Assembly: GCA_029624675.1 (NCBI GenBank)
Contig: JARSSP010000059.1
Location: forward strand, 1-64,000
DNA from: Candidatus Contendibacter sp.
GTDB lineage: Bacteria > Pseudomonadota > Gammaproteobacteria > Competibacterales > Competibacteraceae
DNA: 64,000 nt
Direction of reading: 5' to 3'
Made by a program: the position numbers and the translations under genes. Every line of letters begins with the position of its first letter. The stretch's first letter is position 1. Below the pieces are notes generated by a model. That model had not been told where the DNA came from, did no database searches, and was given only the letters and a program-made list of their open reading frames with translations. This document shows, piece by piece, positions 26,926 to 54,939 of this stretch.

Positions 26926-28831
26926 ATGCCCACACCAAACGACGACCGACCGATCCGTATCCTGCATCTGTCCGACATCCACTTCAGGGCCGACAAGGCT
27001 TGGGATGTGGACCCGGTGTTGCGAGCCCTGACCAAATTCATCACCGAGGAAGTTAAAAACGGGCTTATCCCCGACTTGGTGGCAATCACCGGCGACTTAG
27101 CTTTCGCCGGCACGTCCGACGAGTACCAACTGGCGCGCAACTGGCTGGACCAGCAACTGTGGCCGGCGTTACCGAAGGACTTTCCTCAGGATCGGCTGCT
27201 GTTGGTGCCCGGCAACCACGATGTGGACCGCAAAAAAGTCGATCTTGCGGCCAAAGCTGTTCAAGAGAAGTTGTTGACCCCTGGCGATCAAAAACCAAAA
27301 TCAAATCGCTGAAATCCTCGGTGACGCCGGACAGCGCGACGTGTTGCTGAAACGCCATGCCGCTTACCTGGAGTTCCTCGGCAGGTGGCTGGGCGAGGCG
27401 CAACCACTGCCCTGGTGGCAGCGATCCATCGAAATCCATGGAACTCGCCTGCACGTCGCCGGACTTGACTCCGCCTGGATGGCGTGTGGCGATGAAGATC
27501 GCGGTCGGCTGCTGCTGGGGCGTTACCAAGTCAACCAGACGGTTCTTCACCAAAACGCCGACGATGCCGACTGGCGCCTGGCGCTGCTACACCACCCCTG
27601 GGACTACTTCGCCGAATTCGACGGTCACGAAGCGCGCTCGACGATCCACCAACACCGCGATCTGCTGCTGCGCGGCCATCTGCACCAGCCGCTGACCGAG
27701 CGAGTTGTTCCGCCAGACCCATCCCGCGCCTGCCTGGAAGTAGCCGCCGGCTGCGTTTACGAAAACAGTCGCTACCCGAACGCTTTCCAGTGGATCGAAC
27801 TCCATCTTCGGCCACGCCGCGTCAAGGTTCTGTACCGAGCGTGGATTCATGGTGCCTGGATTATCGACCGCAACCAGCCGGGTTGTCCGAACGGTGAGGC
27901 CGAGTTTGAGCTATCTTCGACGAATCGAGGCAAGGCGGATAATCGTGGCGAAACTTCGCAAGAAGAATTTTCAAGCGATGGAAAACGCACTATCCCGCCT
28001 AAAGCCATCGCCGCCATCGCCGAGTCTCTCGATTTGATCCCCGCCCTCCGCGATGCGCTCGCCCGTCAGCCGAAAGTTAACGGCGCGAAACCGACGGAGC
28101 TCGCACAATGGCTGTGCGCGCCGGACGGCGACGTTCGCGCGGCTATCCGATCCGTTAAGGCCGCTCTGGTCGATGCGGCCAAGAAGCGGGGAGATATTTC
28201 GGCTCTCCGGGAACGGGCCTTGGATATCCTGGGCTGGATGGTGATCACCACGGTCATGGAAGGTTACGAGCGCGAGGATGCCGAGCTGGCCAAGACATGG
28301 TTTGATGAGGTCACGTTCGAGATTCCTCTGGGTCGTAACCCTTGCGTTGAGGTATTGATGGCCCGCTGGCGAGGAAACAAGGCCGAATTTGTCGTCGAGA
28401 AAACTCGTTACGGCTACGGTGCGGACGATATCACCCCCGGCAACCTGCAAGAACTGGGTTTTGATGATCCCACCAAACCGGAAACCGGGCGCGCGGTCGA
28501 TTACGTCCGACGCTTGGCTTATCAGAAAATTCTTCACGTCTCGGTCCCAACGAAGCTGTCCTTGACCCAAGAACAGGATCTCAATGCCAGATTGGACGAC
28601 GAACGAGAAGAGAAGAATCGGCGCCTGCGGTTGATCGTCGACCGGAACGACCCGGATTGCGCGCTCGGCTCGCGAGCGGTGATCGAGGCCATCCATACCG
28701 CACTTCCCCAACTGCTTCTGATTTTCATCCACAGCGGCCGAGAGCCCGATAACCGCGTGTTCGTGATTCCGCCCAGCAAGCTGGCTTCCGCCATCTACGG
28801 ATTCCTGGAAGAAATCGAGAAACTGTCATGA
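26926..28831 (+). pseudogene. Metallophosphoesterase of the DGR operon, interrupted by a +1 frameshift
   Basis: First gene of the operon, with AGGAGG before ATG 26926. Calcineurin-like motifs: LHLSDIHF, ITGDLAF, PGNHDVD, and in the second part LLHHP and RGHLHQ. The frame changes at a run of five A residues (27290-27294); removing one A restores GDQNQNQIAEILGDAGQRDV and a single ~634-residue protein. Either a sequencing error, phase variation, or real inactivation. The C-terminal ~330 residues contain a helical part and an alpha/beta domain (DDEREEKNRRLRLIVDRND) unknown to me. Its stop overlaps the MoxR start (ATGA). In related conflict operons such phosphoesterases may act as effectors; that role is inferred. 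Confidence 0.7.
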
Positions 28832-29802
28832 TCCCCGACCTCCCCGTCGATGAACCCATCCCCCTGGACCGCTGCGGCACCTGGCCTGTCTCGGTGCATC
28901 TTTTCGACCCGCAGAGCGCCGACGCCGTGCTGGCCGCGCTCGCCGCCGAGCGCCCTTTGCTGGTCCGGGGCGAACCTGGCGCGGGCAAAAGCCAGTTGGC
29001 GAGGGCGGCGGCCCAAGTTCTGAAGCGTTCGTTTATCGCCACAGTGGTTCATTCGCGCAGCGAGGCCCAGGACCTGCAATGGGAATACGACGCCGTCGCC
29101 CGGCTGGGCGAGGCGCAGGTACTCGCCTCGGTGCCTTCCGAACTAACTTCCCAGGAGCGTCTTGACCCGCGCCGCTTTCTGATTCCCGGTCCGCTCTGGT
29201 GGGCGTTCGACTGGCAATCCGCTCAGGAGCAAGTCACTAAATACAGTCTGTGCAAGGCCAATCCGCCCTTTAAGCCCGAGGGTTGGCAGCCGGAACAGGG
29301 CAGCGTGCTGCTGATCGACGAGATCGACAAGGCCGAGGCGGACCTGCCCAACAGCCTGTTGGAAACGCTCGGCAACGGCGCTTTTCCGGTGCCGTGGTTG
29401 GACGCTCCCGTGGGTTTGCGCGCGGGTGTTCCGCCGCCGTTGGTGGTCATCACCACCAACGAGGAACGCGAACTACCCTCTGCTTTTCTGCGCCGCTGTA
29501 TGGTGCTGCGCCTGGAGTTGCCCAAGGAACAAGATGCTCTGGTGGCTTGGTTGGTCAAGCGAGGCGAGAAGCACTTCGGGAAGGATTGCGCTGAAAGCAT
29601 TCGCATTAAGGTGGCCAACAAATTGTTCGAGGACCGCGACAGGGCAATTCAACGAGGTTTATACAAGCCGGGTCAGGCCGAATATCTGGATATCTTGCGC
29701 GCCCTGGTGCAGGCTTGCGGCCCCGACAAGGCCGCTCAGGAAAAGCTGTTCAAGCGCATCGCCAGCTTCGCACTCGATAAAGCCGGGACCACGGGCGCAT
29801 GA
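28828..29802 (+). CDS. MoxR-type AAA+ ATPase
   Basis: 324 residues. Walker A is GEPGAGKS, Walker B is VLLIDEIDKAE, sensor 1 is VVITTNEERELPSAF, followed by an arginine finger in FLRRCMVLRLELP. This is the MoxR/AAA_5 pattern. MoxR ATPases usually remodel a partner carrying a vWA or similar domain. Here the gene is translationally coupled on both sides by ATGA overlaps, with the metallophosphoesterase and with the 903-aa FGE protein, so the three probably form one NTP-controlled complex. ATP-dependent switching of the FGE protein is inferred from known MoxR-containing ternary systems. Confidence 0.85.
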   Translation: MIPDLPVDEPIPLDRCGTWPVSVHLFDPQSADAVLAALAAERPLLVRGEPGAGKSQLARAAAQVLKRSFIATVVHSRSEAQDLQWEYDAVARLGEAQVLASVPSELTSQERLDPRRFLIPGPLWWAFDWQSAQEQVTKYSLCKANPPFKPEGWQPEQGSVLLIDEIDKAEADLPNSLLETLGNGAFPVPWLDAPVGLRAGVPPPLVVITTNEERELPSAFLRRCMVLRLELPKEQDALVAWLVKRGEKHFGKDCAESIRIKVANKLFEDRDRAIQRGLYKPGQAEYLDILRALVQACGPDKAAQEKLFKRIASFALDKAGTTGA

Positions 29803-32510: not shown

Positions 32511-32526
32511 CCAGTGAAACGCGACC

Positions 32527-33033
32527 ATGAAATATCGCTTTTTCCATATTCTCGCCCGAGACCCGGCCGCCGAAACCGAAATCCTGAACCGGTTCCTGGC
32601 CGAGCGGCGCATCGTAGCGGTGGATCGCCAGTTCGTCGCCGACGGCGGCAACAGCTTCTGGGCTTTTTCCGTCGCCTATCGGGACGGCGCGTCCGCCTCG
32701 AAGCCTGTCGGCGCTCCCGGCCGACCGGAGAAGGCCAAGATCGATTATCGCGAGGTTTTCGACGAGCGCGACTTCGCCACGTTCGCCGCCCTGCGGACGC
32801 TGCGCAAGGAGTTGGCCGAAGCGGAGGGCGTGCCCGCTTACGCCCTGTTCACCAACGAACAACTGGCGGCCATGGTGCGCGGCAAGGCGCGCACCGTTGC
32901 GGATCTGGCCGCTATCGAGGGCGTCGGCAAAAGCCGGGTGGAAAAGTACGCCGCCGCTTTCCTAAAAGTGCTGGCCGACTCCGCCAAAACCACCGCGACC
33001 AAAGAGGGCGACCGTGCGCCGAGTGCGGATTGA
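32527..33033 (+). CDS. HRDC-domain DGR accessory protein
   Basis: 168 residues. The C-terminal half, VFDERDFATFAALRTLRKEL, YALFTNEQLAAMVRGKARTV, LAAIEGVGKSRVEKYAAAFL, is an HRDC domain as found at the C-terminus of RecQ and RNase D, where it binds nucleic acid. The N-terminal ~90 residues are a small alpha/beta region. HRDC proteins replace the Avd subunit in a subset of DGRs next to the reverse transcriptase. It starts 16 bases after target 1, and its end overlaps the RT start by 20 bases. The role as nucleic-acid chaperone or tether is inferred from this recurrent association. Confidence 0.85.
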   Translation: MKYRFFHILARDPAAETEILNRFLAERRIVAVDRQFVADGGNSFWAFSVAYRDGASASKPVGAPGRPEKAKIDYREVFDERDFATFAALRTLRKELAEAEGVPAYALFTNEQLAAMVRGKARTVADLAAIEGVGKSRVEKYAAAFLKVLADSAKTTATKEGDRAPSAD

Positions 33034-34021
33034 ACTGGCCGAAGTGGCCGCTATCCCCAACCTGATGGAGGCGACGGCCCGCGCGGCGCGCGGCAAACGC
33101 GAACGGCCCGTGGTGCGCGCCTTTCTGGATCGGCTCGAAGCGCATCTGGCGGTCCTAGCCGAGGACATCGTGGCCGGCCGCGCGCCGCGCGGCGAATATT
33201 GCCGCTTCCGCATTCGCGACCCCAAGCCGCGCGTCATTCACGCCGCCTGCTTCGCCGACCGGGTGTTGCATCACGCCGTCATGCTTCCCGCAGGTCCGGT
33301 GCTGGAGCGGGCCATGACCGACACCAGCTACGCCTGCCGTCCGGGCAAGGGAACGCTGGCGGCGGTCCGGGCCGTACAAGCCGCCTTGCAACGCTTTCCC
33401 TGGTACGTCAAGGTGGACGTGAGCGGCTATTTCGAGCACATCGACCACGCGCGTCTGTTCGATGTGCTGGACCGGCGTTTCAAGGGGGCGGGATTCATGG
33501 ACCTGCTGCGACGCATCGTCGCCGGCCACGAGACCGCGCCCGGCAAGGGCTTGCCCATCGGCTCCCTGACCTCGCAATACTTCGCCAACTATTACCTGGA
33601 TGGCCTGGATCGCCTGCTGTTGGAAACACTCGGCGCGCGCGCCGAAGTGCGCTACATGGACGACATCCTCTGGTGGTGCGACAGCCGGGAGCAGGCGCGG
33701 GAAACCCTGGCGGCGGTCGGCGACTGGCTGGGCCGAGAGCGCCTGCTGCGGCTGAAGGAGTTCAGCCCAATCAACCGTTCCAGCCACGGGGTCGGCTTCT
33801 GCGGTTACCGCGTGTCGCCCGGCGCGCTGCGTCTGAACGCGCGACGGCGCAAACGCTACCAGGAACGCCGCGCCGCGTGGGAGATGGCTTGGCGCGAGGG
33901 GCAAATCGATGCTTTGACCCTGCAACGGGGGTATGATGCCGCGCGCGCCATCACCCTCCATGCGGACGGCCGCAACTGGCGGCGCAACGAACTGGCGCGT
34001 CATCCCGCGCCGGAGGTGTAA
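33014..34021 (+). CDS. DGR reverse transcriptase
   Basis: 335 residues. RT motifs: [53 protein letters not shown] with the first catalytic Asp, and YMDDILWW at residues 214-217. The DGR-specific motif [17 protein letters not shown] (Ser187-Gln188) replaces the QG..SP of group II intron RTs. The enzyme copies the TR transcript with adenine-selective errors. Start is GTG at 33014, overlapping the HRDC gene, which has no space for another start. The TR begins 15 bases after its stop. The catalytic aspartates and thumb region look intact, so it may be active. Confidence 0.93.
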
Positions 34022-34035
34022 GGGTGGGAGTCGAA

Positions 34036-34162
34036 ACCGGCGAGAGGCGCGTCCTGCGGGGCGGTTCCTGGATCAACAACGGTCGCAACGCGCGCTCCGC
34101 GTACCGCAACCACAACGAGCCCGGCAACCGCAACCACAACATCGGCTTCCGTCTGGCCCTAG
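34036..34162 (+). repeat. DGR template repeat (TR)
   Basis: 127 bases just downstream of the RT gene. It reads like the end of an FGE domain in which variable codons are AAC ([20 protein letters not shown]), giving 26 adenines, mostly clustered in AAC/CAC codons. A-rich codons at ligand-contact positions are the hallmark of a TR. Similarity to the VRs stops sharply after CCCTAG (34162), where TR continues CTCGACGG and the VRs GTCCCGAG. The overlapping 101-codon frame 34024-34329 is regarded as non-coding. Confidence 0.93.
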
Positions 34163-34325
34163 CTCGACGGGGTGGTGGATGCCGCCCCATGGACCAGACC
34201 CCCATCCCGTCCCGCCGTTTGGCGGGCGAAAAGCGAACGGCCACCGGCGTGCTGGTAGGGAGAGCGGATGCCTCTCGAACGCTCGCCGGTCGGCCGCCTT
34301 CTTCGAAATCCGGGAGAGAGTGGGC

Positions 34326-35237
34326 GTGAAGAACCCCGCCCCCACCCCGCCGCCCGGTCCCGCACCGGAGCACTTCCCTGCCCCTTGGGCCAGCGACTGG
34401 GGCGAAGACCCCTACGGATTGTGGCAATCCTTGACCTATCGAGGCGTGCGCCAGGCTTTCCGCTGGTTGCCGTCGGGACGGTTCCTGATGGGCTCGCATG
34501 ATCGATTCGACGATGAACTTCAGCACGAAGTGATTTTGACTCGTGGCTTCTGGCTGGCCGAGACCGCCTGCACTCAGGCGCTGTGGCAAGCGGTGACAGG
34601 GAAAAATCCCAGTGGGTTTAAGGGCGAACGGCGGCCAGTGGAGACCGTGAGTTGGAACGAGGTTCAGGATTTCATCGAGCGCATCAACGGCACGGTGCCG
34701 GAACTGGAAGCGCGGCTGCCGACCGAAGCCGAATGGGAATACGCCTGCCGGGCTGGAACGACCACGCCCTTCTCCTTCGGAGAGGACATCACGCCGGAGC
34801 AAGTGAACTACAACGGCAACTATCCCTATCGTGGGAGCAAGCAAGGGCTGGATCGCGGCGAAACTGTCGAAGTCGCCTCGCTGCCGGCCAATCCCTGGGG
34901 GCTATACGAGATGCACGGCAACGTCTGGGAGTGGTGCCAGGATGGGTACGGGAGCTATCCAGAGGGTCCAACGGTCGACCCAACCGGCCCGAAAACCGGC
35001 GGGAGGCGCGTCCTGCGGGGCGGTTCCTGGTTCAACCTCGGTCGCAACGCGCGCTCCGCGTACCGCATCCGCTACGAGCCCGGCAACCGCTCCCACTACA
35101 TCGGCTTCCGTCTGGCCCTAGGTCCCGAGCTCCGGCAAGACAAGCAGGCCGGTCAAAGCAAAGGCGGGGCCGGCCAGACCGCGCGCGCAGCGCCCGGAGG
35201 GGGCGAGAAGCGCGGGCGGGCCGGCCCCGCCGCGTAA
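34326..35237 (+). CDS. FGE/SUMF1-domain protein, DGR target 2
   Basis: 303 residues, nearly all one FGE/SUMF1 domain ([59 protein letters not shown]). It is a close paralogue of the C-terminal third of target 1, including the 40-residue basic tail. The N-terminal ~35 residues are Pro-rich ([12 protein letters not shown]). Residues ~224-265 are encoded by VR2 (34995-35121). Start GTG at 34326 is the first plausible codon after the TR region; an alternative start further in is possible. It lacks the large MoxR-linked N-terminus, so it may act as a soluble second binder. Catalytic FGE activity is not expected. Confidence 0.85.
34995..35121 (+). repeat. DGR variable repeat VR2
   Basis: 127 bases aligned without gaps to the TR, with 10 mismatches, all at template adenines (A to T, C or G). 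Flanks downstream are shared with VR1 and differ from TR. The codon pattern differs from VR1, so the two were diversified independently. Confidence 0.93.
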
Positions 35238-40211: not shown

Positions 40212-41123
40212 TCATCTTCGGGATAACAGGATTTTCATGATTTCCGGATTACTGTTTTTCGATGCGATATCAAAGGCGCTCAAGCCGCTCGTACTTTTTT
40301 CATGAGCGTTGGCGCCCTTGCTGAGCAACAATCTTGCAATGTCGATATCGACCAGATTCGACGCCATCATCAAGGCCGTGTAACCCTCATCGGTTTTTAC
40401 ATGCACATCCGCTCCTCTCTCCAGCAACAGGCTCACAAGTTTCGTATTACCGTTCATGGTGGCTACCATTAAAGCGGTCAGCCCACCATTTTTCGATTTC
40501 GTGTTGACATTAACACCGATATCCATCAAATATTTTACGGCGTCCATATCGCCCTCATGCGCCGTGACAATCAAACACGAGTCAAGGATCAAGTAGTCGG
40601 ACTGCAAGGTTTCGACTTTTCTTCTCTCCACCTCCCTGGCGGCCCGCTGCGCCATTTCCTTCTCCCTGGCGGCCCGCTGCGCCACTTCCCTCTCCCTGGC
40701 GGCTTGCTGTTCCATTTCCTTTTCCCAAGCGGCCTGTTGTTTAGCCAGTTCGGCCGAAATTCTCTTGTTCTCCATTTCTGCCTTCGCCTTCGCCTTCGCC
40801 TTCGCCTCCATGTCTTCCATTTCTATCGCCGGTTTCGGCTTGGCTTGCTCAACGACAGCAGGATATCTTTCAATTTCCCTTTTATTGCGGTTTTCGATTA
40901 ACGCTTTTATTTTAGGATCATTAGGGTCAAATATAAGCTCAATGACATCTCCATTGGGTAATTTACCCGCTGGCCTCTGTTCCTTGACCCAGTATTCCGG
41001 TGGGGTGGTGGTCATCAGGATTTTTCCGGTGGCTGGATCAGTCCAGCGATAGACATTGTCGGCCATCGATGAGTCAATAAGAAACATCGTCAAACCAACT
41101 ATGGCCATTAGCTTGGTTTTCAT
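40212..41123 (-). CDS. Exported coiled-coil/ankyrin-repeat protein
   Basis: 303 residues. A signal peptide (1-21, ending SSMA-DN) precedes a DUF4124-like segment (VYRWTDPATGKILMTTTPPE). Residues ~100-165 form a charged coiled coil of repeated AAREKEMAQRA units. Three or four ankyrin repeats follow (GDMDAVKYLMDIGVNVNTKS, GNTKLVSLLLERGADVHVKT, VDIDIARLLLSKGANAHEKS). It is the last gene of the kinase/Hsp70 operon; its ATG overlaps the stop of the preceding OmpA-like gene (ATGA). Periplasmic interaction partner of the complex is a plausible role, inferred. Confidence 0.8.
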   Translation of the reverse strand: MKTKLMAIVGLTMFLIDSSMADNVYRWTDPATGKILMTTTPPEYWVKEQRPAGKLPNGDVIELIFDPNDPKIKALIENRNKREIERYPAVVEQAKPKPAIEMEDMEAKAKAKAKAEMENKRISAELAKQQAAWEKEMEQQAAREREVAQRAAREKEMAQRAAREVERRKVETLQSDYLILDSCLIVTAHEGDMDAVKYLMDIGVNVNTKSKNGGLTALMVATMNGNTKLVSLLLERGADVHVKTDEGYTALMMASNLVDIDIARLLLSKGANAHEKSTSGLSAFDIASKNSNPEIMKILLSRR

Positions 41124-42319
41124 CGAGAAATACCCCTATCCTGCCGAGAATGGCTTGCGGCGTGGATTTCGATGACGACGGTCCGATTGCATCGTCGGCT
41201 GGCATCCGAATCGTTCGGGCACGGGGCGTGGCGCTCGTCGCCGATGGAGGCGAGCCACTCGTGCTGGTCTTCATTCTGCATCGCGACGACTGCGTTCGCG
41301 GCGCGGTAAAGGGCGAGTTGCCCGTTCTTGACCCAACGACCTCCCGGCCGTGACGGCACGGTATCGGTGAATCCAACCACGCGCACCCGCACCGGTTCGG
41401 CGGTAGCCTTGAACGCTTCGGCGATGGACTGGAGAAGAGCAGCGCCAAGCGGATCCGCATCGGCGGAACCGGAGGGGAACAACCCACTGGTTGGCGTTAC
41501 GCGAATCGTATCGTTTAGCTGTTCGACGTGGAGTCCTTTGAGCGCCCCAAGCGCGATAGAGAGGTTGCCGATGGTTTTTGAAGCGGCCTCGTCGGCGTCG
41601 GGCGTCGTCGCGGGCGTAACCGCCAACGGGTCGGTAGTTTGCGATGTCGGCGTCGATACCCTGCTTTCCGCTTCAGCTAAAGTAAGCGATTGGACAAGAA
41701 CCGGACTGTCGACGCCCACCGGATTGGGTGGGGTGGAGGCTTGCGTATCCGATGGTTGACCGGCACTCGCCGAAATCGCCACCTCATCCGGCTGTTTGGT
41801 TTCGGATAAGATGGTTGGCCGAGGTTCCAATGCGGCGGCACTCGGCGTCGCGTGGACTGGGCCGTGTTCGTCGCCGGTTATCCGACCCACCACAAAAGAG
41901 CAGAGAGCAAGCGTCGCCGCGCCAAGGGTCGCAGCGAACGCAAGAGTCTGAAATCGCCGCGCCCGCGCCCGATTTGCCTGGGCCAGCAAGGATTTCGCGT
42001 TGTCATCATTGGGATGCTCGTCGGCAACACGGCGCCATTCGTCGATGGCTTCGCCAGTACGCCCGGTTTTCCAAAGCACTTTTCCAAGTAAGACTCGTAC
42101 CGGCGCCGCCGAGGGATCCGCGCCGAGCGCCGCCTGCAATTCGCGAATTGCCGCGGAATGATCGCCGTGGCTGGCAAATGCAAGCGCCGTGTTGTAACGC
42201 CAGGCGGCAAGCTCGCGTATTCGACGGATCGGCGCAAGATCGGCCCCGCAGTTCTCGCAAGTCAGGTAATTCGCGGCAATGTTGGTGGCGGGACAAACCG
42301 GACAGTTCATCGTATCCAA
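41120..42319 (-). CDS. Zinc-ribbon/TPR/transmembrane protein with OmpA-like C-terminus
   Basis: 399 residues. N-terminal zinc ribbon CPVCPATNIAANYLTCENCG, a TPR-like helical part (HSAAIRELQAALGADPSAAP), one transmembrane helix near 130-150 (AFAATLGAATLALCSFVVG), a Ser/Thr/Pro-rich linker, and a C-terminal OmpA/MotB-like domain (RVRVVGFTDTVPSRPGGRWV ... RRCNRTVVIEI). So the zinc ribbon lies in the cytosol and the OmpA domain in the periplasm, where it could bind peptidoglycan. TTG at 42319 is chosen because AGGAG lies 9 bases upstream; ATG 42310 is the alternative. It follows the YidC-like gene by 41 bases. Confidence 0.75.
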   Translation of the reverse strand: MDTMNCPVCPATNIAANYLTCENCGADLAPIRRIRELAAWRYNTALAFASHGDHSAAIRELQAALGADPSAAPVRVLLGKVLWKTGRTGEAIDEWRRVADEHPNDDNAKSLLAQANRARARRFQTLAFAATLGAATLALCSFVVGRITGDEHGPVHATPSAAALEPRPTILSETKQPDEVAISASAGQPSDTQASTPPNPVGVDSPVLVQSLTLAEAESRVSTPTSQTTDPLAVTPATTPDADEAASKTIGNLSIALGALKGLHVEQLNDTIRVTPTSGLFPSGSADADPLGAALLQSIAEAFKATAEPVRVRVVGFTDTVPSRPGGRWVKNGQLALYRAANAVVAMQNEDQHEWLASIGDERHAPCPNDSDASRRCNRTVVIEIHAASHSRQDRGISR

Positions 42320-42360: not shown

Positions 42361-45300
42361 CTAGTCGGCTTTACAGACGAAATCCGCCTTGGGAGGGAAA
42401 TTCCCTGAGGCCCTGCCAAGATCCAGCTTAGTTATGATTAGAACTAGGATCAGTTGAATTCCTGCGGAAATTCCCCATAACAGCATCCATGCAATAGTCA
42501 TATATGCGGGCCAATCAAAGAACCATGCAATGGCTGGAACGATGATTAACGATAAGCCCATGAGGCTTCCAGTTATCAAGGTGATCAGGGAATCTTGATT
42601 GAATTTGCCCTTTTTACTTATTAGAATCATGAGCGGTAACCCCATGGTGACCCACACAATAATTACGCTGTGGCTGGATTTGAAAATGTTCGTAATCCAG
42701 AAAAACTTTGCGCCATCCAGTTCCATTTGAGGTACCCATGCGCGTAGCGACAATAAAATCCAGATGGCGAATAAGATGCCAATGAGTTCGCGGAGTGATT
42801 CTAGCTTGAAATTTATACCGCGTTTCTTGTACAACTGGGCTATTTCGATATTCATCTGTATTAAATTACCAGCATTTTCTTGCCTGATTTTTTCGATTTC
42901 TGGTTTCAGGATACTGTTTATTCTTATCATCGTCACGAGAAAAGGTAATTCGATTAGCTTTATAAATATTGCCAGCACGATTAGCGCAAAAAAGTAGGCA
43001 TATGGCAGTGGAAATAGCGAGTTGGAACGAAGCCAGTCGAGCAGGCGGATCGAAATATTATCCTTGCGTAAGTCGACGAGGCCCAGGTTGGCGGCACGAT
43101 GCGTCGTCGTCTTTTCCCATGAACCGGCAGTGCGGAACCATCCATCGGTTGCCGGTTTTTCGAGCGACTCCTTGTAGGCTTGCTCAAGTTTGTCTGGATC
43201 AATCGCATCCAACTCGGACTTTCGCATTTTACCCGTGGCGACGTATGGGCCGCCGCCTTGGATCAGCCTGGCGTAATAAGAAAAAGCTGCGGTTTGGTCT
43301 CCAAGACTTTCAAGCGCGGCTGCGATCAATAGCATGGTCATCGAACGGGTTTCGTTCGACAGATATGGTAACTGCTTTTGGAGTATGTCGATCTCAGTTC
43401 TTAGCTTCTGATCACTTGCCGAATCGGACACTCTGCTGTCGATTTTCATGAGTGCTGTCGTGACTTGATCGACTAAAATTCTTTGCTTCAGGACTTGCTG
43501 GCTAGACTCCATCGATATCCTTGGTACTGGTTTTTCTGGAATCCGGTTTTTAGCGGATGTCGTTACAGCAGTATTCTGAGCAACTCTGCCAGAAAATCTA
43601 TTTTGGTCGCCAAAAGTGTTTGGCATATACATTAATCCCACTAAAAAAATAAACAACCACCCACCGAGAATAACCTCGGGAAAGATCAAGAAAATGGCTT
43701 TTAATGGCTTTCTATTCCAACTGAACCAATTGGCGAATAGCAATAAGTAAATTCCAATCGTGCAAACCAAAGTTGCGGAAGAGGCAGCAAACATTCCGAG
43801 ATCACTACTACTGCGAAGCGCCAATAGCCAATGGTTAGACGGCAGGTAGGTCTCGTAGAAAAAAGAGCTTCCTTGATCGTAGCTGGCCACTCCAAAAGAT
43901 AGGAAAAAAATGAAAAGGTTAAATAGGATAAAAATTGAAGACATAACTGTAAATTTTTTGCCAAGCTGACTCTCAAACCCTGAGATGGCTTTTTCAACGT
44001 ATCGAAGATGTTTGGTGACGGAATCATTTGATGGATCAAGTTTTTTAGCTTCATTAAAATCATCTCTGGCGGGATATAACCGTCCTAATCTGCTTTGCCG
44101 ATCCAAGCCAGGTGTTTGCATCGCATCATCCTCGTAGCTCATACCACGCTGTGCGATGACATTGGCAAGATCTTTTTTAATTTTTTCCGATGCTCGTGGG
44201 CCAAGCAGATTGATAGCTTTACGAAACTTCTCTATCGCCTCATCCCAATCCTTGCGTTTCCAGGCTGCATAAGCCTCATCCAAATTTTTGTGAATAATGA
44301 CATCCTCAAGATCTTTTTTAATTTTTTCCGATGCCTGTGAGTCGAGGTGGCTAATCGCCTTTTGAAATTTCCTTATCGCCTCATCCCAGTTCTTGCGTTC
44401 CCGCGCCGCGTAAGCTTCGTCCAAAAGTTTCTGAGCAATGATATCACTACAATCTTTTTTAATTTTTTCCGATGCCCGTCGACCGAGGCAGCTAATCGCC
44501 TCTTCAAGCTTCCTTATCGCCTCATCCCAGTTCTTGCGTTCCCGCGCCGCGTAGGCTTCGTCTAACAGTTGCTGGGCTTCGGCGGAAATTGGAAATTCTC
44601 GGGGAAGATGTTTCGAGGCTTGCGAGCCGAGTTGGCTGATCGCTCTTTCAAACTTATCCGCCGCTTGATCCCAGTCTTCGTTTTCCAGCGCCGCGTAAGC
44701 CTCTTGTAAAATCTTCAAGGTTCCGGCGGAAATAGAAGGTTTCTGGCGATCATTTGGTTGTAGTTGTGTGGGGATTGAGGATTCTAGTTGTGAAATTTGT
44801 TGTTCAATGCCCCGAAGGTTTTGGAGAGCATGGTCGTTTGATGGGTCAAGCTGGATCGCCTCGCACAGGGTTGTACAGGCGCTATATAGCAATTTCCATT
44901 GAGGTGTCAGCGCAACACGTAACATTTCCAGTCCTTGGGGTATCCGCGCCGCATCTATAGCCCCTGCCAACATTTTGACCAGTTCTGATGCTGCTACATT
45001 GAAGCGATCCGTGCTGTAATTGTTAAGACAAACCGACAGATTCTTTCTGAGCTGATTCAACGCTCTTGAATTAGGTTGCTTAAGAGCAAGCTCCCTAAGC
45101 GCTTTTCGGAGTTTCCCTATCGCCCGCTCCCAATCTTGTCTTCCCCCTGCTTCGTTGGCTTCTTCCCAAAGCTTTTTGATTTCGGGAGGAAATTTGAGTC
45201 GTTCGAGCACCTCGCTCGCGTCTTTGTATGGCTTCGCCGCAGGTTCGGATCCGAGTTCCTTCGCGGCGCGCCTGAGATCGGCGATTCCACGCTCGGCCAT

Positions 45301-46608
45301 CTCAATGGTTTTCTCGCTCGGCGGGTCTTCCTTTTCCGCCTTTTTCTTAGCTTCGACCACTGCTTCGATGCCGCGCTGCGTGAGCAGGTCAGCGAGTCTG
45401 AGCCGCAACTTCTCGCTGTGCGGAGCGATTCGAAAGCCACTTTCGAAAACGCGGATGGCCTCGTCCCGAGGTGGATTTTGCGTGGAAAAATTGATACACG
45501 CCGCTTCCGCCGCCTCGGCAATTTCTCGTCGCAGGTTATCGGACTGAGCGCATTGCAGCGCCCGTTCCCAGCAAGCAAGGGCCTCATCAAGCTTATTGAC
45601 GCTGGCAAGCTGCTGCCCGAACTGAAAACGGGCTTGCGCCTCAAACCCAAGAACTTCAGGTAATTCCCGTTCGCTGGGCGATAGGCTTTCGATCTGATTG
45701 ATCGCCGCCTCAAAGCGGCCGTTCTTAATGAGCGCCGCGATGTTGCCGTAAGACGAAAAGTCTTCCTTGAGCTTGCGTAGAAGATCAAGATGTTCTTTAG
45801 TGGCGTTGGAGGGAGGGTTACGGAGCCTTTCGTCGATATAGGCAACGATTTGCTCGACCAACCTCATCCGAACGAGCATCAGGTTTCCGAAGCAGATAAA
45901 TTTCTTATTGATCTTTGCCTTGGCGTCAAGCAGCGTTTTCGCGGTTTCCAGTTCCCTGATGAGGTCCATTTCAAGCTGCTGGAAGCGATCGGCCGCATCG
46001 TCGTGTCCCGCATCGCGTTGAAGCTGGGTGAAGCGATGCAAATCCGATGCGATGCGTTGTTGCACACCCGCTCGAATATCATCCTGGGTCAGCGAGAAAG
46101 GCGGACTTTTTTCGGCCCAGAAGTCGGGTGTCGTGGCGACATAGGCCCAATAACCCATGGCCGATTCCCATGAATCCTGCCACGCTGAAATATCGCCATC
46201 GCTCTGTGCGCCCGTTTCGGCGAACTGTTCGGAGGCCTGGCACGCTGACCAGTACCACAGAATACCGAGCGCGCGGGCGATTCCTGGATCGGGAAACGTA
46301 CTGCCACGGAACTGCTTGCGCCACTTGCTGGCTGTTTCAGCGCGCTGCGAGACATCGAGAGCGTCAGGATCATGGAGTGGATTGGGATCGAGCTTCTCCA
46401 GCACCGCGTCGTCGTACAAGAAAAGATTAAGAAGCGCGCGATCCAACGGCCGGCTGAGGAGGAATTGCCTGGCGTCTTGCTTTTGTTTTACGTTCTTACT
46501 TTTGCCGAGTCCTTTTTTAAAAGCGTCGTCAATTTCTTTTGCCGTAGCGTCGGGGCTGACGCTCAAAATCTCGTAGGGAGTCGGTTGTTTCTGAAGTGGG
46601 TCTTTCAT
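42361..46608 (-). CDS. J-domain-like/TPR/YidC-like giant membrane protein
   Basis: 1415 residues. The N-terminus (TPYEILSVSPDATAKEIDDAFKK) resembles helices I-II of a J domain but lacks HPD. Helical TPR-like repeats fill ~230-840, including three near-identical 47-residue units. Membrane helices follow (~865-1010). The C-terminal ~250 residues resemble YidC/Oxa1: a helix, then IKLIELPFLVTMIRINSILK, PEIEKIRQENAGNLIQMNIE, IAQLYKKRGINFK and further helices, as in the insertase core with its cytosolic hairpin. This couples a co-chaperone-like N-terminus to an insertase-like module beside Hsp70 and GrpE genes. The gene's 3' half is much richer in A+T than its neighbours. The YidC relation rests on motif order; a profile search would decide. 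Confidence 0.7.
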   Translation of the reverse strand: MKDPLQKQPTPYEILSVSPDATAKEIDDAFKKGLGKSKNVKQKQDARQFLLSRPLDRALLNLFLYDDAVLEKLDPNPLHDPDALDVSQRAETASKWRKQFRGSTFPDPGIARALGILWYWSACQASEQFAETGAQSDGDISAWQDSWESAMGYWAYVATTPDFWAEKSPPFSLTQDDIRAGVQQRIASDLHRFTQLQRDAGHDDAADRFQQLEMDLIRELETAKTLLDAKAKINKKFICFGNLMLVRMRLVEQIVAYIDERLRNPPSNATKEHLDLLRKLKEDFSSYGNIAALIKNGRFEAAINQIESLSPSERELPEVLGFEAQARFQFGQQLASVNKLDEALACWERALQCAQSDNLRREIAEAAEAACINFSTQNPPRDEAIRVFESGFRIAPHSEKLRLRLADLLTQRGIEAVVEAKKKAEKEDPPSEKTIEMAERGIADLRRAAKELGSEPAAKPYKDASEVLERLKFPPEIKKLWEEANEAGGRQDWERAIGKLRKALRELALKQPNSRALNQLRKNLSVCLNNYSTDRFNVAASELVKMLAGAIDAARIPQGLEMLRVALTPQWKLLYSACTTLCEAIQLDPSNDHALQNLRGIEQQISQLESSIPTQLQPNDRQKPSISAGTLKILQEAYAALENEDWDQAADKFERAISQLGSQASKHLPREFPISAEAQQLLDEAYAARERKNWDEAIRKLEEAISCLGRRASEKIKKDCSDIIAQKLLDEAYAARERKNWDEAIRKFQKAISHLDSQASEKIKKDLEDVIIHKNLDEAYAAWKRKDWDEAIEKFRKAINLLGPRASEKIKKDLANVIAQRGMSYEDDAMQTPGLDRQSRLGRLYPARDDFNEAKKLDPSNDSVTKHLRYVEKAISGFESQLGKKFTVMSSIFILFNLFIFFLSFGVASYDQGSSFFYETYLPSNHWLLALRSSSDLGMFAASSATLVCTIGIYLLLFANWFSWNRKPLKAIFLIFPEVILGGWLFIFLVGLMYMPNTFGDQNRFSGRVAQNTAVTTSAKNRIPEKPVPRISMESSQQVLKQRILVDQVTTALMKIDSRVSDSASDQKLRTEIDILQKQLPYLSNETRSMTMLLIAAALESLGDQTAAFSYYARLIQGGGPYVATGKMRKSELDAIDPDKLEQAYKESLEKPATDGWFRTAGSWEKTTTHRAANLGLVDLRKDNISIRLLDWLRSNSLFPLPYAYFFALIVLAIFIKLIELPFLVTMIRINSILKPEIEKIRQENAGNLIQMNIEIAQLYKKRGINFKLESLRELIGILFAIWILLSLRAWVPQMELDGAKFFWITNIFKSSHSVIIVWVTMGLPLMILISKKGKFNQDSLITLITGSLMGLSLIIVPAIAWFFDWPAYMTIAWMLLWGISAGIQLILVLIITKLDLGRASGNFPPKADFVCKAD
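44160..44582 (-). repeat. Tandem 141-bp TPR-coding repeats
   Basis: Three units with a 141-base period, marked by CGCCTCATCCCA at about 44236, 44377 and 44518, encode 47-residue TPR-like motifs (LDEAYAARERKNWDEAIRKL...). A more diverged fourth unit lies near 44640-44700. Such repeats can expand or contract by recombination. Confidence 0.75.
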
Positions 46609-46796: not shown

Positions 46797-49331
46797 TCAA
46801 TGAAGAATCCAGGTATCTTCTCCGCAGGTCGGGCAGAATCGCTTTCCTTGAGTTGGATGACCCTGTGAACAACAAGCACCGCCAGGCTCCACCTCCTGGA
46901 TCGCCTGCCCAATGCGCTCGGCAAGCCCATTCAGTTTGCCGAGTGCTTGAAAATCCTGTCGCTTGAGCCCATTTTCAATCTCCTCCACTTCCTTGAGCAG
47001 GCCAGCGGCCTTTCTGGGATCACGTGGCTGGATACGCGAGAGAATGGCACTTCTTATCCCCAGGAAAAGCCTGATAACATCCGGAATGGCGTCCGTCGCC
47101 TTGTCGAGCGCGTTGACTTGCGTTTGCAAATTGCGCGGATCATTCGCATCAAGCGCCTTCCTGGTTGCCTCGACAACGCGGGTCAGCTGATAGGTTTGAT
47201 TCGGGTCCGTCATGAGCTCGCCATACTGACTCATGACAAACTCAGCGAATCGGATGAGATTTGCAGCCTTCTCCCGCAAATCCTCATCGTCGGGAAGGGG
47301 GTTGTCCAATCCGTGGTTGATTTCCACGATGTCATGGAGCGCCTCGTCAAACTCACGCCGCTGCAACCGCACATAAACCTGGTCGCGCTCGCGTTCCGCC
47401 GCGGCAACGACCTTGGGGAGACGTTGCCTGGTGGCTGGATCGACCAGTCGCTGATTGAGCTGCTCCAGGTTTTCGATAGCCTTGGCGTCGGATTCGCCGG
47501 TCATGACCCAAGGATTGAGACGGGTTCCGTCCCCAAGCCATGCCTCCACTTGAAATATGCCATCGCTGTTGAGGATAAGCTGGACCCGGACAGGAGTTTT
47601 TTGCGGCAACGCCACTGGAAGCAGCGCCAGCGCCTGGCCCTGTAGTTCGTTGGCACTGGCTTTTTCGAGGTGGTCACCGCCGTAGACCGGGATACTGACG
47701 ATCCGCTGATTCGGCATGCGAGTGTAAAAAGTTTGTGGCTTTGGGTCCTCGGTGGGATAAGGATCACCCTTTTGAATGAAGACGTTGTACTTGTCTCCGG
47801 CCGTTTGTGTCCCGTAGCTGTAAGGCGCAATTCCGCCCACTTGTCCCTTTCTGCCGACCTCTCTTGGTTTTTGTTGGGTCGCGAGCGCATCAAATTCCTC
47901 GATGGGCGTTTCCTCGGAAACGAACGAGTCGGTTTCCTCGGCCAATTTGAGAGGAGCGCCACAATTGGCGCAGGTTTCGGCGTCGGGGTCGTTGACGTGA
48001 CCGCACTCGCGTTTCGGATCGGCGGGATCGGGCGCTTGACAGACGACGCGATCACCGACCCACCGCGCGGTAATCGCCGCGCCCAGCGCGACGCAATGCT
48101 TGGGATGGATCGTGCGGAGCACTTTCTCCGACCCGAATTCCGCCTCCATTTCGCGTTGAACCAGCGGCACGATGGTCGAGTTGCCGGCCATCAGCACATA
48201 GTCGACCTGGTCGGTGGTCAGGTTAGCGTTCTTGATCGCCTCGTGAACCAACTGAAGCGATTTCCCGATCCGCTCGGGACCGCGCAGCGGCTGCCCGCAT
48301 TGGGCGCAGTGGGTGTCTTCGCGCAAATTCGCGGCGCCGCAGGCGCATTCCCGATAGCGGCCCACCAGCGGAACGATCAGCCGCTCGAATTCCTTGCGGG
48401 TGATTTCCAGATCGACATCGAGCAGGTTGTCGTCGTCGTCGCGCAACAGGCCGGTGATGAGCAGATCGGCGCTATTGGCGGCGGTCAACCGTTCCTTGGT
48501 GGTTTGCGCCGCCTTGCGCAGTTCGGCCATGAACCGGCCGTCCTGGCTGGGATCGATTTCGTATTCGTTCTTGATGTGCTGGAGCGCGTGATCGATGATC
48601 TTCTGGTCAAAATCGTCGCCGCCCAGCCACATATCGCCTTCGAGATTCAACGGGGCGAACACATTACCGGCCAGCATCAGGACGGACACGTCGAAAGTGC
48701 CGCCACCGAGATCGTAGACGACCAGCGTGCGCGGTTCTTCATCGGGCGATTCCACCCCGAACGCGACCGCCGCCGCCGTCGGTTCGTCGAGAACTTTGAT
48801 AACCTTCAATCCTGCCTTGAGACCCGCCTTGCGGGTTGCGTCGCGCTGAATCTGACTGAAATAGGCCGGCACGGTGATCACCGCGTGGGTCACCGGCTCG
48901 CCCAGCCGGAACTCCGCGGTTTCCTTCACCTTTTGCAAGATCATCGCGGAAACCTCGATCGGCGAGTATTGCTTGCCGCCGATGACCACGCGGACGCTGT
49001 CCTTGGTGCCGTCCTTGGGCTCGACCACCGCATAGGTCGCCCGCTGGCGAATCCGTTGCACCTCGGGATCGGCCACGCCGCGCCCCATCAGGCGCTTGAC
49101 CGACAGTACCGTGTCCTTGGGCGCCATCCCCCAGTTATCGACCGCCGCGTCGCCCACCAGAATCTCCTCGGTCCCCGGGTCGCCCTTCCTGCCCTTGCGT
49201 TTCTTCAGGCTGACGGCCGACCGAATCTGCGGCTTGCCTTCCTGACTGTCCAGCACCCGAGGCCGCGGCCCGTCGATGATCGCGACCACCGTGTTGGTGG
49301 TTCCCAAGTCGATTCCCACCATTTTTCCCAT
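46797..49331 (-). CDS. Hsp70 (DnaK-like) protein with embedded zinc ribbons
   Basis: About 844 residues. ATPase motifs: GIDLGTTNTVVAI, VYDLGGGTFDVSVL, and DYVLMAGNSTIVPL. A zinc ribbon (CACGAANLREDTHCAQCGQP) is inserted inside the ATPase domain after FERLIVPLVGRYRE. A second (ECGHVNDPDAETCANCGAPL) follows the ATPase end, and a third motif (HPTQGKRFCPTCGED) lies at the C-terminus. The substrate-binding part keeps YSYGTQTAGDKYNVFIQKGD and a helical tail of about 250 residues. Such ribbons are absent from ordinary DnaK. Start ATG 49331 is 9 bases from GGAGGAG; ATG 49340 is too close. GrpE-like and J-like partners flank it, so it forms a dedicated chaperone set. Confidence 0.85.
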   Translation of the reverse strand: MGKMVGIDLGTTNTVVAIIDGPRPRVLDSQEGKPQIRSAVSLKKRKGRKGDPGTEEILVGDAAVDNWGMAPKDTVLSVKRLMGRGVADPEVQRIRQRATYAVVEPKDGTKDSVRVVIGGKQYSPIEVSAMILQKVKETAEFRLGEPVTHAVITVPAYFSQIQRDATRKAGLKAGLKVIKVLDEPTAAAVAFGVESPDEEPRTLVVYDLGGGTFDVSVLMLAGNVFAPLNLEGDMWLGGDDFDQKIIDHALQHIKNEYEIDPSQDGRFMAELRKAAQTTKERLTAANSADLLITGLLRDDDDNLLDVDLEITRKEFERLIVPLVGRYRECACGAANLREDTHCAQCGQPLRGPERIGKSLQLVHEAIKNANLTTDQVDYVLMAGNSTIVPLVQREMEAEFGSEKVLRTIHPKHCVALGAAITARWVGDRVVCQAPDPADPKRECGHVNDPDAETCANCGAPLKLAEETDSFVSEETPIEEFDALATQQKPREVGRKGQVGGIAPYSYGTQTAGDKYNVFIQKGDPYPTEDPKPQTFYTRMPNQRIVSIPVYGGDHLEKASANELQGQALALLPVALPQKTPVRVQLILNSDGIFQVEAWLGDGTRLNPWVMTGESDAKAIENLEQLNQRLVDPATRQRLPKVVAAAERERDQVYVRLQRREFDEALHDIVEINHGLDNPLPDDEDLREKAANLIRFAEFVMSQYGELMTDPNQTYQLTRVVEATRKALDANDPRNLQTQVNALDKATDAIPDVIRLFLGIRSAILSRIQPRDPRKAAGLLKEVEEIENGLKRQDFQALGKLNGLAERIGQAIQEVEPGGACCSQGHPTQGKRFCPTCGEDTWILH

Positions 49332-49358
49332 GATCTTCATCTCCTCCGGTTTTCAGGT

Positions 49359-49928
49359 TCAGGTTTGATTGATGACATTGGCGTCATCGTTGCGGACGAT
49401 GACCACTTCAGCCTTGCGCAGGGTCGTTCCGTTCCAGAGATAGCCACACCGCGTCTGCTCGACGATGAACCCATCCGCGTGCGCAGGGTCATTCACCGTT
49501 TCGATGGCTCGATGCCAAACCGGATCGAATCCGCCATCCAGATTCAAGATCGGCGTGACGCCATGCTCGGTCAACATTTTTTCCAACATGCGGCGCACGG
49601 TGCGGAAGTTGTTGATCCAGATTTTCATCTGCTTGGTGATCTGATCTTCCTTTTGGTGAATATTGCGAAAGACGCGATCGAAGGCATCGAGAATATCGAG
49701 CGTCTCCAGTAGAAACTTGCGTTGCGTCTCCTCATTTTGCTTGCATGCTTCGTCAACGGCGAAGCGCGCTTCGGCCCGTTCGCGCAGCAAGCGGCGAATA
49801 TCGCTTTCAAGATTGGTCAGTGGATCGGATTCCTGGCCGCTCCATGCATGCAACGGAATCGGTGTTTCGTCGATTTCGAACGGGCTGTCGTTTCGAGTCA
49901 AAGCGATGAAGGGAATGGCAAATGACAT
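49359..49928 (-). CDS. GrpE-like nucleotide exchange factor
   Basis: 189 residues. A long N-terminal helix (SDIRRLLRERAEARFAVDEA...) with FLLETLDILDAFDRVFRN is followed by the beta domain FDPVWHRAIETVNDPAHADG, FIVEQTRCGYLWNGTTLRKA, EVVIVRND. This is the GrpE pattern (…GYxLxxRVLRPAxVxV). The family removes ADP from DnaK. It lies 2 bases after the kinase gene and 27 bases before the Hsp70 gene, so it probably serves that Hsp70 and not the housekeeping one. N-terminal ~30 residues are unlike classical GrpE. Confidence 0.82.
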   Translation of the reverse strand: MSFAIPFIALTRNDSPFEIDETPIPLHAWSGQESDPLTNLESDIRRLLRERAEARFAVDEACKQNEETQRKFLLETLDILDAFDRVFRNIHQKEDQITKQMKIWINNFRTVRRMLEKMLTEHGVTPILNLDGGFDPVWHRAIETVNDPAHADGFIVEQTRCGYLWNGTTLRKAEVVIVRNDDANVINQT

Positions 49929-49930
49929 TT

Positions 49931-51211
49931 TTAACCACCCTGAAGAACCTTAAGCAGGATTGAAGCGTGACGGTGCAAGCTGGCGTCCAGTCCGAGCGCC
50001 ATCGCCCGTTCCAAATGTCGCGCTGCATTTTTTCTCTGTCCTTTTCTTTGCAAGGCAAGCGCGAGATCCCAATGCAGCAGCGCGTTGTCGGGATTCGTTT
50101 CAATACCCTGCTCAAAGATTGCGATCGCCTCCGGATAACGCTGGCACCGGTTGTAAAATTCGCCCAAGTGCTGATGAATTCTGGGCTGATTCGGGCATTT
50201 CTCCAGTAATTCCTTGAGGCGCTCCTCAATGTCGGCGACGTCGGCCGGCGATTTCATCGCACTGATTTGCACACGAATGGATGCCAGTTCATGCTCGATC
50301 TCTTCATCGGTCGAGCTACCACGCGTTGCTCGCAGCGCATCGAGCATCTCCTCGGCGGTGCCGCGCTGACTCGGATCGCGTTGCAGCGATCGAAGAATGA
50401 AGTCGTTGAGTGATTGCGGCAGGTCGGGGCGCAATTCCTTCGGTGGTATCGGTTCCGCGCGACAGATTTCCTCAAGGACACGTCCGATCGGCATTTCGCC
50501 ACCGTCGGCTATTCTGCCGACGCCAAACGGCAGTTGCCCGGTGATCATTTCGTAGAACGTGATGCCCAAAGACCAGATGTCCGAAGGGAAAGAGGCACCC
50601 CCACGCCAGATCTCGGGAGACATGTAGTACGGCGTTCCAGCCGTTGTGATGGCGATTTCATCTGAATCCAGCATCCGTGAAATTCCGAGGTCGGCGATCA
50701 TGGGCGTATCGCCATCGAGCAGGATATTTTCGGGTTTGATATCGCGATGGAAGATCTGCTCCTTATGCAGGATGACGAGACCGGCAAGGATTCCCTCGGT
50801 AATTCGAACCGCCTGGTCGATGGGTAACGGCCTTTGCGCGCCAATCCTGCCGAGAATTTTCCGCAGACTTCCACCTGACACGAACTGCATCACCATGACG
50901 ATGGAATTACGGAACACGGCAAAGCCAAGATAGCGGACCAGATTGACAGACTGAATTTTACGCAAACGGACGTGGAGTACGGCGTTCATCTCCAGCTCAC
51001 GTCGCAGAACGCGCTCCTTTTGGCGGTCAAGTGGTATTTTCAAGGCGACGATATCGCTGCCGAATTCTTCTTTAAGCTCTTCGTCCAAGACGCGCGCCTT
51101 GTAAGTTTCAGCGAACCCTCCTCTCCCAAGATGACTAATCAACTTAAAGGGTTCCTGTTCATCGGACTCTTCGAACTCTTCAAGCATTTTTCGAGCTTTT
51201 TGCAGGGCCAT
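49931..51211 (-). CDS. Ser/Thr protein kinase with C-terminal TPR
   Basis: 426 residues. Hanks-type kinase: glycine loop LGRGGFAETYKA, Lys58 in ALKIP, HRDIKPEN (Asp157), IADLGIS in place of DFG (Asp174), TTAGTPYYMSPEIWRGG, SDIWSLGITFYEMITGQLPF. Residues ~330-420 form TPR motifs (AIAIFEQGIETNPDNALLHW). No transmembrane helix, so it is cytosolic. It heads the chaperone operon, 2 bases before the GrpE-like gene, and may phosphorylate Hsp70, the TPR/YidC-like protein or the sigma factor system; targets are inferred only. Its ATG overlaps the stop of a small upstream frame (TAATG). Confidence 0.88.
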   Translation of the reverse strand: MALQKARKMLEEFEESDEQEPFKLISHLGRGGFAETYKARVLDEELKEEFGSDIVALKIPLDRQKERVLRRELEMNAVLHVRLRKIQSVNLVRYLGFAVFRNSIVMVMQFVSGGSLRKILGRIGAQRPLPIDQAVRITEGILAGLVILHKEQIFHRDIKPENILLDGDTPMIADLGISRMLDSDEIAITTAGTPYYMSPEIWRGGASFPSDIWSLGITFYEMITGQLPFGVGRIADGGEMPIGRVLEEICRAEPIPPKELRPDLPQSLNDFILRSLQRDPSQRGTAEEMLDALRATRGSSTDEEIEHELASIRVQISAMKSPADVADIEERLKELLEKCPNQPRIHQHLGEFYNRCQRYPEAIAIFEQGIETNPDNALLHWDLALALQRKGQRKNAARHLERAMALGLDASLHRHASILLKVLQGG

Positions 51212-53609: not shown

Positions 53610-54101
53610 CTATCGGCCGCGCAGCATGTGCTCAAGCGACCTGCCCGCGCCGCCGGCGTCGCTACCGATGAGAGAGACAAGTTCCTGAAGCGCTTTTTCC
53701 ATCGCCTGTCGCGCGACCGGGTTGCCAGCCGGGCCGGTGCCGAAGCGAAATCGCCTCACGGCGTTATAGAGATTCGTCCTGGCCTGGGCCTGAAGAGTCG
53801 CCTGAATCGGCCGTATTTTTGCGTCAAGCGCCGCGATCGTCATGCGCCCCACGATGCCGTCTTGCGCCAGACCGTTCGCCGCTTGAAAGGCGATCACCGC
53901 CGCGCGCGTTTCGCGGCCGAATATGCCATCGGGCGCGCTTTGCCCCGCCTGGGTCGAGGACGGCATCTGGGCGCCCAGGGCGATCAGAGCCAATTGCAGC
54001 AGTTTGACGCCCGAACCTGTCGCCCCCATCTGCAAAGGCGGCGCGTTGGTGGCTGCCTTCATGATCTGTGCATCGCCAGAGAATAGGTCGCTGGTAATCA
54101 T
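53610..54101 (-). CDS. Peptidoglycan-binding-like protein
   Basis: 163 residues. A PG_binding_1 module spans ~25-95: MGATGSGVKLLQLALIALGA, DGIFGRETRAAVIAFQAANG, LAQDGIVGRMTIAALDA. No signal peptide is seen. The C-terminal ~60 residues are helical. It starts 10 bases after the stop of the DUF4157 gene, so they form an operon. Peptidoglycan-binding modules next to DUF4157 proteins occur among contractile injection and toxin loci; here the exact role is unclear. Confidence 0.75.
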   Translation of the reverse strand: MITSDLFSGDAQIMKAATNAPPLQMGATGSGVKLLQLALIALGAQMPSSTQAGQSAPDGIFGRETRAAVIAFQAANGLAQDGIVGRMTIAALDAKIRPIQATLQAQARTNLYNAVRRFRFGTGPAGNPVARQAMEKALQELVSLIGSDAGGAGRSLEHMLRGR

Positions 54102-54111
54102 GTTGCCCCGC

Positions 54112-54939
54112 CTAGTTGTTGCCGTTGACGAAGATCGGGCCGACCTTTCCGAACCGCGTGTTGAGGATGAACGCGGCATAGCGGTTCATCGCACACGAGA
54201 AAACGCACCAACTTGTTATGAGGTACCATTTATAAGCGGTGGACTGCGTGAAGCCGCAATCGACCAGCCCACACGGCACAGGGTCCGGCTTGCGGGTATC
54301 CATGATCACTTCGGCGCACACCGAACCGCATTTCGCTATGATCGGATTGACGGCCTGAACCCGCCGTGGAGCGGGTAAGAGGGTTATCGATGGAGCCAGT
54401 CCGGCGGCAAAAGCCCGTTGAGCGGCGACCGCCTGCGCTTCAAGCCGGTCGCGACCGAACAGGCGTCTGTCATATCCGAGGCCAGTTCTTTGCTGGAGGA
54501 CATGGACAATTTCATGCGCCAGCAAAGCGCCGTCGTCGGCCGCCATCGCCGCGACGGCTTCGCTGCCGAGCACGATGCCATCGCCCAAGACAAAGGCTTG
54601 CGCGCCCAAATCACTCGTGGCGCGGTCCGCCGCCGCGCCCATGTGCAGCCGCACCGCACTGAGGTCGCAGCCGAACGCACGCTCAAAGCGCCGGCGTTCG
54701 GCGTGAGGAATAGGCAGGCCCGCGGTCTCCAGCGCGTCAGCGATGAGGTCATCCGGCGCGTCGTCACAATCGCCACAGCCGCAGGCGCAAGGTCTGGGCT
54801 GGATGTCGGCGATCCGCCGACGGACATGGCGGTAGACTGCGTCGAACTCGTCCTCGAACTGGCGGATTGCCCAGCGGTCCAGCGCCACGCTGCCGTTCCA
54901 TCCGGCGACCGATCGCAAATCAACGATGCGTTGCATCAT
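54112..54939 (-). CDS. DUF4157-type putative metalloprotease
   Basis: 275 residues. The DUF4157 core runs from IPHAERRRFERAFGCDLSAV through LHMGAAADRATSDLGAQAFV, ending in the zinc motif LLAHEIVHVLQQ (His142, Glu143, His146). The N-terminal ~60 residues hold a Cys cluster, CACGCGDC. The C-terminal ~90 residues contain several cysteines and a possible hydrophobic stretch. DUF4157 proteins are frequently associated with extracellular contractile injection systems as effectors or processing proteases. No sheath or tube genes are present here. Start ATG follows AGGAGAAC. Confidence 0.75.
   Translation of the reverse strand: MMQRIVDLRSVAGWNGSVALDRWAIRQFEDEFDAVYRHVRRRIADIQPRPCACGCGDCDDAPDDLIADALETAGLPIPHAERRRFERAFGCDLSAVRLHMGAAADRATSDLGAQAFVLGDGIVLGSEAVAAMAADDGALLAHEIVHVLQQRTGLGYDRRLFGRDRLEAQAVAAQRAFAAGLAPSITLLPAPRRVQAVNPIIAKCGSVCAEVIMDTRKPDPVPCGLVDCGFTQSTAYKWYLITSWCVFSCAMNRYAAFILNTRFGKVGPIFVNGNN

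Follow-up and report, generated by a model that had tools for sequence, protein, structure and literature searches.

Introduction

In bacteria, the hand-over of membrane proteins from Hsp70 to YidC is poorly defined. The insertion of TssL is YidC dependent and modulated by DnaK, which provides a precedent for Hsp70 and YidC acting on one client (PMC3426401), while synthetic tail-anchored proteins in Escherichia coli require neither YidC nor SecYEG (PMC6794478). The Oxa2 proteins of plants and green algae are YidC relatives joined to TPRs, which are located C-terminally, and a J domain is not mentioned in that study (PMC2706819). Pam16/Tim16, which acts with Pam18 in the mitochondrial import motor (i.e., a membrane Hsp70 motor at a translocation site), carries a J-like domain that lacks HPD; it is a protein of its own, and its pairing partner has the HPD (PMC12953747). 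Kaur et al. (2020) described a GAP1-N2 theme of conflict systems with Hsp70, GrpE, J- or TPR-bearing proteins, membrane features, and zinc ribbons, as well as a kinase/zinc-ribbon theme; these systems gather modules "typically in inactive form," and YidC is not mentioned in that study (PMC7159879).

We analyzed a 64,000-nt stretch of Candidatus Contendibacter sp. DNA (contig JARSSP010000059.1, positions 1 to 64,000; assembly GCA_029624675.1), hereafter the window, in which a single gene encodes a 1415-aa protein that joins a J-like domain, TPRs, and a YidC/Oxa1-like core. Like Oxa2, this protein links a YidC relative to TPRs, but the repeats are N-terminal. It shares with Pam16 the HPD-less J-like domain, a predicted membrane location, and an Hsp70; however, a second J-domain gene was not found on the contig. 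In common with members of the YidC/Oxa1/Alb3 family (PF02096, TIGR03592), it has a predicted five-helix core, a C1 hairpin, a TM2 lysine, and counterparts of the loop and TM5-TM6 motifs, whereas its scores fall under the family cutoffs, the NPLGGCLP motif is lost, and the N-terminal half differs in that it contains three predicted helices and does not match P1. The set of Hsp70, GrpE, and a J/TPR protein known from one theme of the GAP1-N2 systems is present at the locus, along with membrane features and zinc ribbons, but a Pfam search of the 36 larger window proteins identified neither the GAP1/GTPase component nor the FNIII protein of those systems. Our literature searches of open-licence PMC papers returned no paper on a J-like/TPR/YidC fusion.

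Results and Discussion

Architecture of the 1415-aa protein

The reading frame starts with ATG and continues for 1415 codons with zero internal stops (Table 1). The TPR region matched Pfam TPR_2 (E = 7e-13) and the isolated YidC-like module matched 60KD_IMP (E = 1e-7), and the fusion of J-like, TPR, and YidC-like parts proposed in the original prediction was borne out by profile tests. As read from the sequence, the join within one gene is confirmed as genuine, and it is known from a single genome. Because defining motifs of YidC proper and of J proteins were tested and are not retained, we classify the protein as a relative of the YidC superfamily with a J-like domain and do not file it under either group.

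Table 1. Positions of the features of the 1415-aa gene and of the neighboring genes in the window
Feature	Position	Strand	Basis or remark
Whole gene, 1415 aa: J-like / TPR / 3 TM / extracytoplasmic stretch / YidC-like 5-TM core	42361..46608	-	ORF, Pfam, hydropathy
J-like domain without HPD, residues ~8-70	46399..46587	-	Pfam DnaJ partial match; phmmer, Foldseek
TPR region, residues ~291-870	43999..45738	-	Pfam TPR families
Tandem TPR array	44166..44574	-	141 bp (47 codons), 2.9 copies, 80% matches
Three predicted TM helices, residues 888-906, 940-958, 972-990	43639..43947	-	Hydropathy and charge count
Predicted extracytoplasmic stretch without YidC P1 match, residues 991-1206	42991..43638	-	Pfam, hydropathy
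YidC/Oxa1-like core, residues ~1204-1390	42439..42999	-	Pfam, TIGR03592, hhalign, core HMM
K1217 codon, TM2 groove position of YidC-like core	42958-42960	-	Alignment
C1-like cytosolic hairpin ILKPEIEKIRQE...IAQLYKKRGIN, residues 1226-1274	42787..42933	-	hhalign, core HMM alignment
Ser/Thr kinase with TPR tail	49931..51211	-	Pfam Pkinase 1e-44; HRDIKPEN and DLG present
GrpE nucleotide exchange factor	49359..49928	-	Pfam GrpE 1e-20
Hsp70, 847 aa, zinc-ribbon-like Cys clusters	46797..49340	-	Pfam HSP70 3e-105; DLGTTN, DLGGGT, three CxxC
TPR-OmpA protein: zinc-ribbon-like N-terminus, TPR, one TM (126-144), OmpA/TssL-type C-terminus	41120..42319	-	Candidate client or partner
Ankyrin-repeat protein	40212..41123	-	

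J-like N-terminus

When searched as an isolated piece, the N-terminus (PYEILSVSPDATAKEIDDAFKKGLGKSKNVKQKQDARQFLLSRPLDRALL) matched Pfam DnaJ over residues 11 to 37 (profile positions 2 to 28 of 63; E = 5e-4, under the cutoff). The nearest solved structures identified by phmmer were J domains, at a level that was not significant (E = 0.065), and the top Foldseek matches to a weak single-sequence AF2 model of residues 1 to 95 (pLDDT, 62) were nearly all J domains, none of them significant (E of at least 0.2). A reading of the J-like sequence revealed no HPD tripeptide; helix II appears to stop early and to be followed directly by a helix-III-like segment. The prediction of a J-resembling N-terminus lacking HPD agrees with these results, the DnaJ match being partial and under the cutoff, and we assign the domain as J-like with moderate confidence. 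Since HPD is missing, stimulation of ATPase activity is not expected; the domain might bind Hsp70, inhibit it, or not engage it at all.

YidC/Oxa1-like core

On the basis of hydropathy and charge counts, the protein is predicted to have eight helices (three plus five) with positive-inside charges and a YidC-like orientation, the five-helix core having a cytosolic C1, C2, and tail. The YidC order of helix, cytosolic hairpin, and helices, which had been claimed for the C-terminal region, is kept in this predicted topology and in the alignment of the C1 hairpin (LKPEIEKIRQ...MNIEIAQLYKKRGIN) with that of YidCs. K1217 aligns with the conserved Lys/Arg groove position of TM2, where lysine is also common in the canonical YidCs of the phylum. 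The E..A..WI loop is kept (MELDGAKFFWITNI aligns with VEMRHAPF.LWI.DL of YidCs), and PAIAWFFDWPAYMTIAW, which aligns with P.IFTFFFL.FPSGLVLYW, corresponds to the FPxGLxLYW region. The motif at the start of TM3 (NPLGGCLP) is lost, with NFKLESLR in its place. The position equivalent to T362 is an alanine.

With the whole protein as query, Pfam 60KD_IMP (PF02096) matched residues 1205 to 1386 over profile positions 1 to 159 of 163 (E = 7.4e-6). When the isolated module was compared with 24,736 Pfam models, no other family was reported; its 60KD_IMP score (32.6 bits) was under the cutoff of 35. The module also matched TIGR03592 (E = 7.9e-7), again under the cutoff (29.3 versus 84.3 bits). An hhalign comparison with 26 canonical YidCs from the same phylum gave 82.8% (E = 9.3e-6), and an HMM trimmed to the YidC core gave an E value of 6e-9 in a single-target search. 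With a YidC HMM, the real sequence scored 16.4 bits, while the best of 5000 composition shuffles, a lenient control that destroys the helix pattern, scored 10.0 bits. In the source genome, two proteins matched the YidC family, the YidC-like module ranking second beside a normal YidC. A single-sequence AF2 model of residues 1192 to 1402 (pLDDT, 59.5) was too poor for a fold test and had no significant Foldseek match. Judged from these alignments, residues 1205 to 1390 are a full-length but divergent YidC/Oxa1 core. The relationship to YidC in the original prediction is supported by the profile tests; its "insertase-like pore" is conjectural, as YidC acts mainly via a groove and the TM3 motif is lost here.

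Gene neighborhood

The genes for the kinase, GrpE, Hsp70, the 1415-aa protein, the TPR-OmpA protein, and the ankyrin-repeat protein follow one another on the same strand with gaps of 2, 18, 188, 41, and -4 nt, respectively (i.e., the last two overlap by 4 nt). The original prediction had made no use of the Hsp70 and GrpE genes immediately upstream. The closely spaced genes of this set are likely cotranscribed; a common transcript from hsp70 to the 1415-aa gene is less secure because of the 188-nt gap, and consensus scans were uninformative, yielding fewer promoter- and terminator-like sites than in shuffled sequences. The Hsp70 retains its nucleotide-binding motifs, and two zinc-ribbon-like Cys clusters interrupt its chain, with a third at its end. 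Because a normal YidC and strong DnaK and DnaJ family matches are encoded elsewhere in the genome, the kinase/GrpE/Hsp70/1415-aa set is additional to them; two further Hsp70 loci in the genome are unrelated. PADLOC returned generic kinase and ankyrin matches and one weak match of GrpE to an RT model. At 2.4 kb upstream of the kinase gene, a gene for an eCIS_core-domain protein (54112-54939) adjoins one for a PG_binding_1 protein (53610-54179), both on the minus strand.

Distribution and origin

No relatives of the 1415-aa protein were detected in 40 genomes of the order, in 369 of the class, or in plasmid, viral, and species-genome collections, the contig scans being seeded on exact 8-residue matches, which distant relatives may escape; at this search sensitivity, the protein is so far a singleton, although other long YidC fusions may occur among the PF02096 proteins of the class. 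Canonical YidCs are encoded on two putatively viral contigs (IMG/VR) and share 57% and 39% identity with the query YidC. Close relatives of the neighboring Hsp70 were likewise not detected in the class (E of 1e-120 or lower) or in the viral and species-genome collections, and the nearest plasmid Hsp70 loci (Aeromonas, Cupriavidus, and Streptomyces) encode no members of the set beyond Hsp70 and GrpE, and J, TPR, and YidC matches were absent from them. The contig was assigned to the genus by DNA matches. The GC3 of the YidC-like part is 0.48 to 0.54, versus 0.90 for the core of the genome's own YidC, and G+C content along the gene decreases from 0.53-0.58 to mostly 0.41-0.44 toward the C-terminal half. 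The absence from relatives together with the low GC3 suggests horizontal gain, and the YidC-like part, or the gene, is likely of foreign origin.

Possible roles

The sequence shows which domains are present and in what order, how the protein is predicted to lie in the membrane, and which genes surround it; from this we infer possible Hsp70 binding, insertion activity, a client, and kinase control. The fusion is real and unusual; our tentative preference is that it serves as a membrane dock for the neighboring Hsp70. The cytosolic J-like and TPR arms would keep the dedicated Hsp70, or else clients bound to Hsp70, at the inner membrane, where the YidC-like core would take hydrophobic segments of a few clients for insertion or assembly. 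The most plausible client would be the product of the next gene downstream, the single-span TPR-OmpA protein. GrpE would recycle the Hsp70, and the kinase would determine when the set is active. In favor of this reading, the core retains the predicted YidC topology, the C1 hairpin, the TM2 lysine, the E..A..WI loop, and an FPxGLxLYW counterpart; the gene is part of a same-strand set with the kinase, GrpE, Hsp70, TPR-OmpA, and ankyrin genes; and the Hsp70 keeps its nucleotide-binding motifs. Precedents are TssL for Hsp70 and YidC on one client, Pam16 for an HPD-less J-like domain in a membrane Hsp70 motor, and Oxa2 for TPRs on a YidC relative. Counted against it are the missing HPD, the loss of NPLGGCLP, the alanine at the T362 equivalent, the Pfam score under the cutoff, the low-confidence AF2 model without a significant fold match, the gap to hsp70, the lack of relatives that would show conservation of features, and the YidC independence of synthetic tail-anchored proteins in E. 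coli. A complete single-polypeptide relay in bacteria, in which a J-like dock, a TPR client receptor, and a YidC-type groove would act with their own Hsp70, GrpE, and kinase on a dedicated client posttranslationally, is a bolder form of this proposal and appears unlikely. With a natural fusion of this kind encoded next to a dedicated Hsp70 set and a possible client, the hand-over from Hsp70 to YidC could be tested within one small operon.

Nearly as likely as a membrane dock is the recruitment of both modules in inactive form, such that an HPD-less J-like domain and a degenerate YidC core would have given up co-chaperone and insertase activity. They would instead belong to a conflict or envelope-stress system based on the kinase and Hsp70, whether as scaffold, as membrane sensor, or as decoy. 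Signature motifs are lost from both parts, as would suit the inactive modules of the conflict systems described by Kaur et al. (PMC7159879), whose Hsp70/GrpE and kinase/zinc-ribbon themes also count in favor of this reading; a diversity-generating retroelement that targets FGE-sulfatase genes is located approximately 7 kb away; and the signs of horizontal gain fit such a system. However, an anchor would need less than what is retained (the lysine, the C1 hairpin, the loop motif, and the topology), GTPase, FNIII, and tubulin genes were not found among the window proteins scanned, and the retroelement is connected to the gene solely by distance. Were the modules inactive, the protein would exemplify the recruitment of an essential insertase fold into a signaling or conflict system.

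An assembly or recent-fusion artifact, in which the in-frame 141-bp repeat brought together an N-terminal J/TPR gene and a membrane gene unrelated to it, is improbable. The array does sit between the two halves of the protein, G+C content drops toward the C-terminal half, and the single known copy comes from a draft genome of 74 contigs; nevertheless, all 1415 codons are open, the array is in frame and preceded by TPR-type sequence, the drop starts ahead of it (residue ~473), and the DNA elsewhere on the contig is typical of the genus. Chance similarity of hydrophobic helices to YidC, for which the weak scores and hydrophobic composition might speak, is very improbable and has been largely refuted by the full-length match to a single Pfam family, by the score above those of all composition-matched shuffles (in which the helix pattern is not preserved), and by the charged and loop motifs that match those of YidCs.

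Other features of the window

The diversity-generating retroelement (29799-35237) comprises a reverse transcriptase gene (33014-34021), a template repeat (34034-34165), and, within FGE-sulfatase-type genes, two variable repeats (32260-32391 and 34993-35124), with 15/17 and 10/11 of the mismatches located on template A; an AAA_5 ATPase gene (28828-29802) is immediately upstream. A 1554-aa protein (14347-19011) carries an unusual combination of GH14 (beta-amylase), a GH57 match, and Fn3/CHB_HEX pieces. An element of ~136 nt occurs twice in the window, at positions 1-136 and 24726-24851, and recurs across most of the genomes in the genus.
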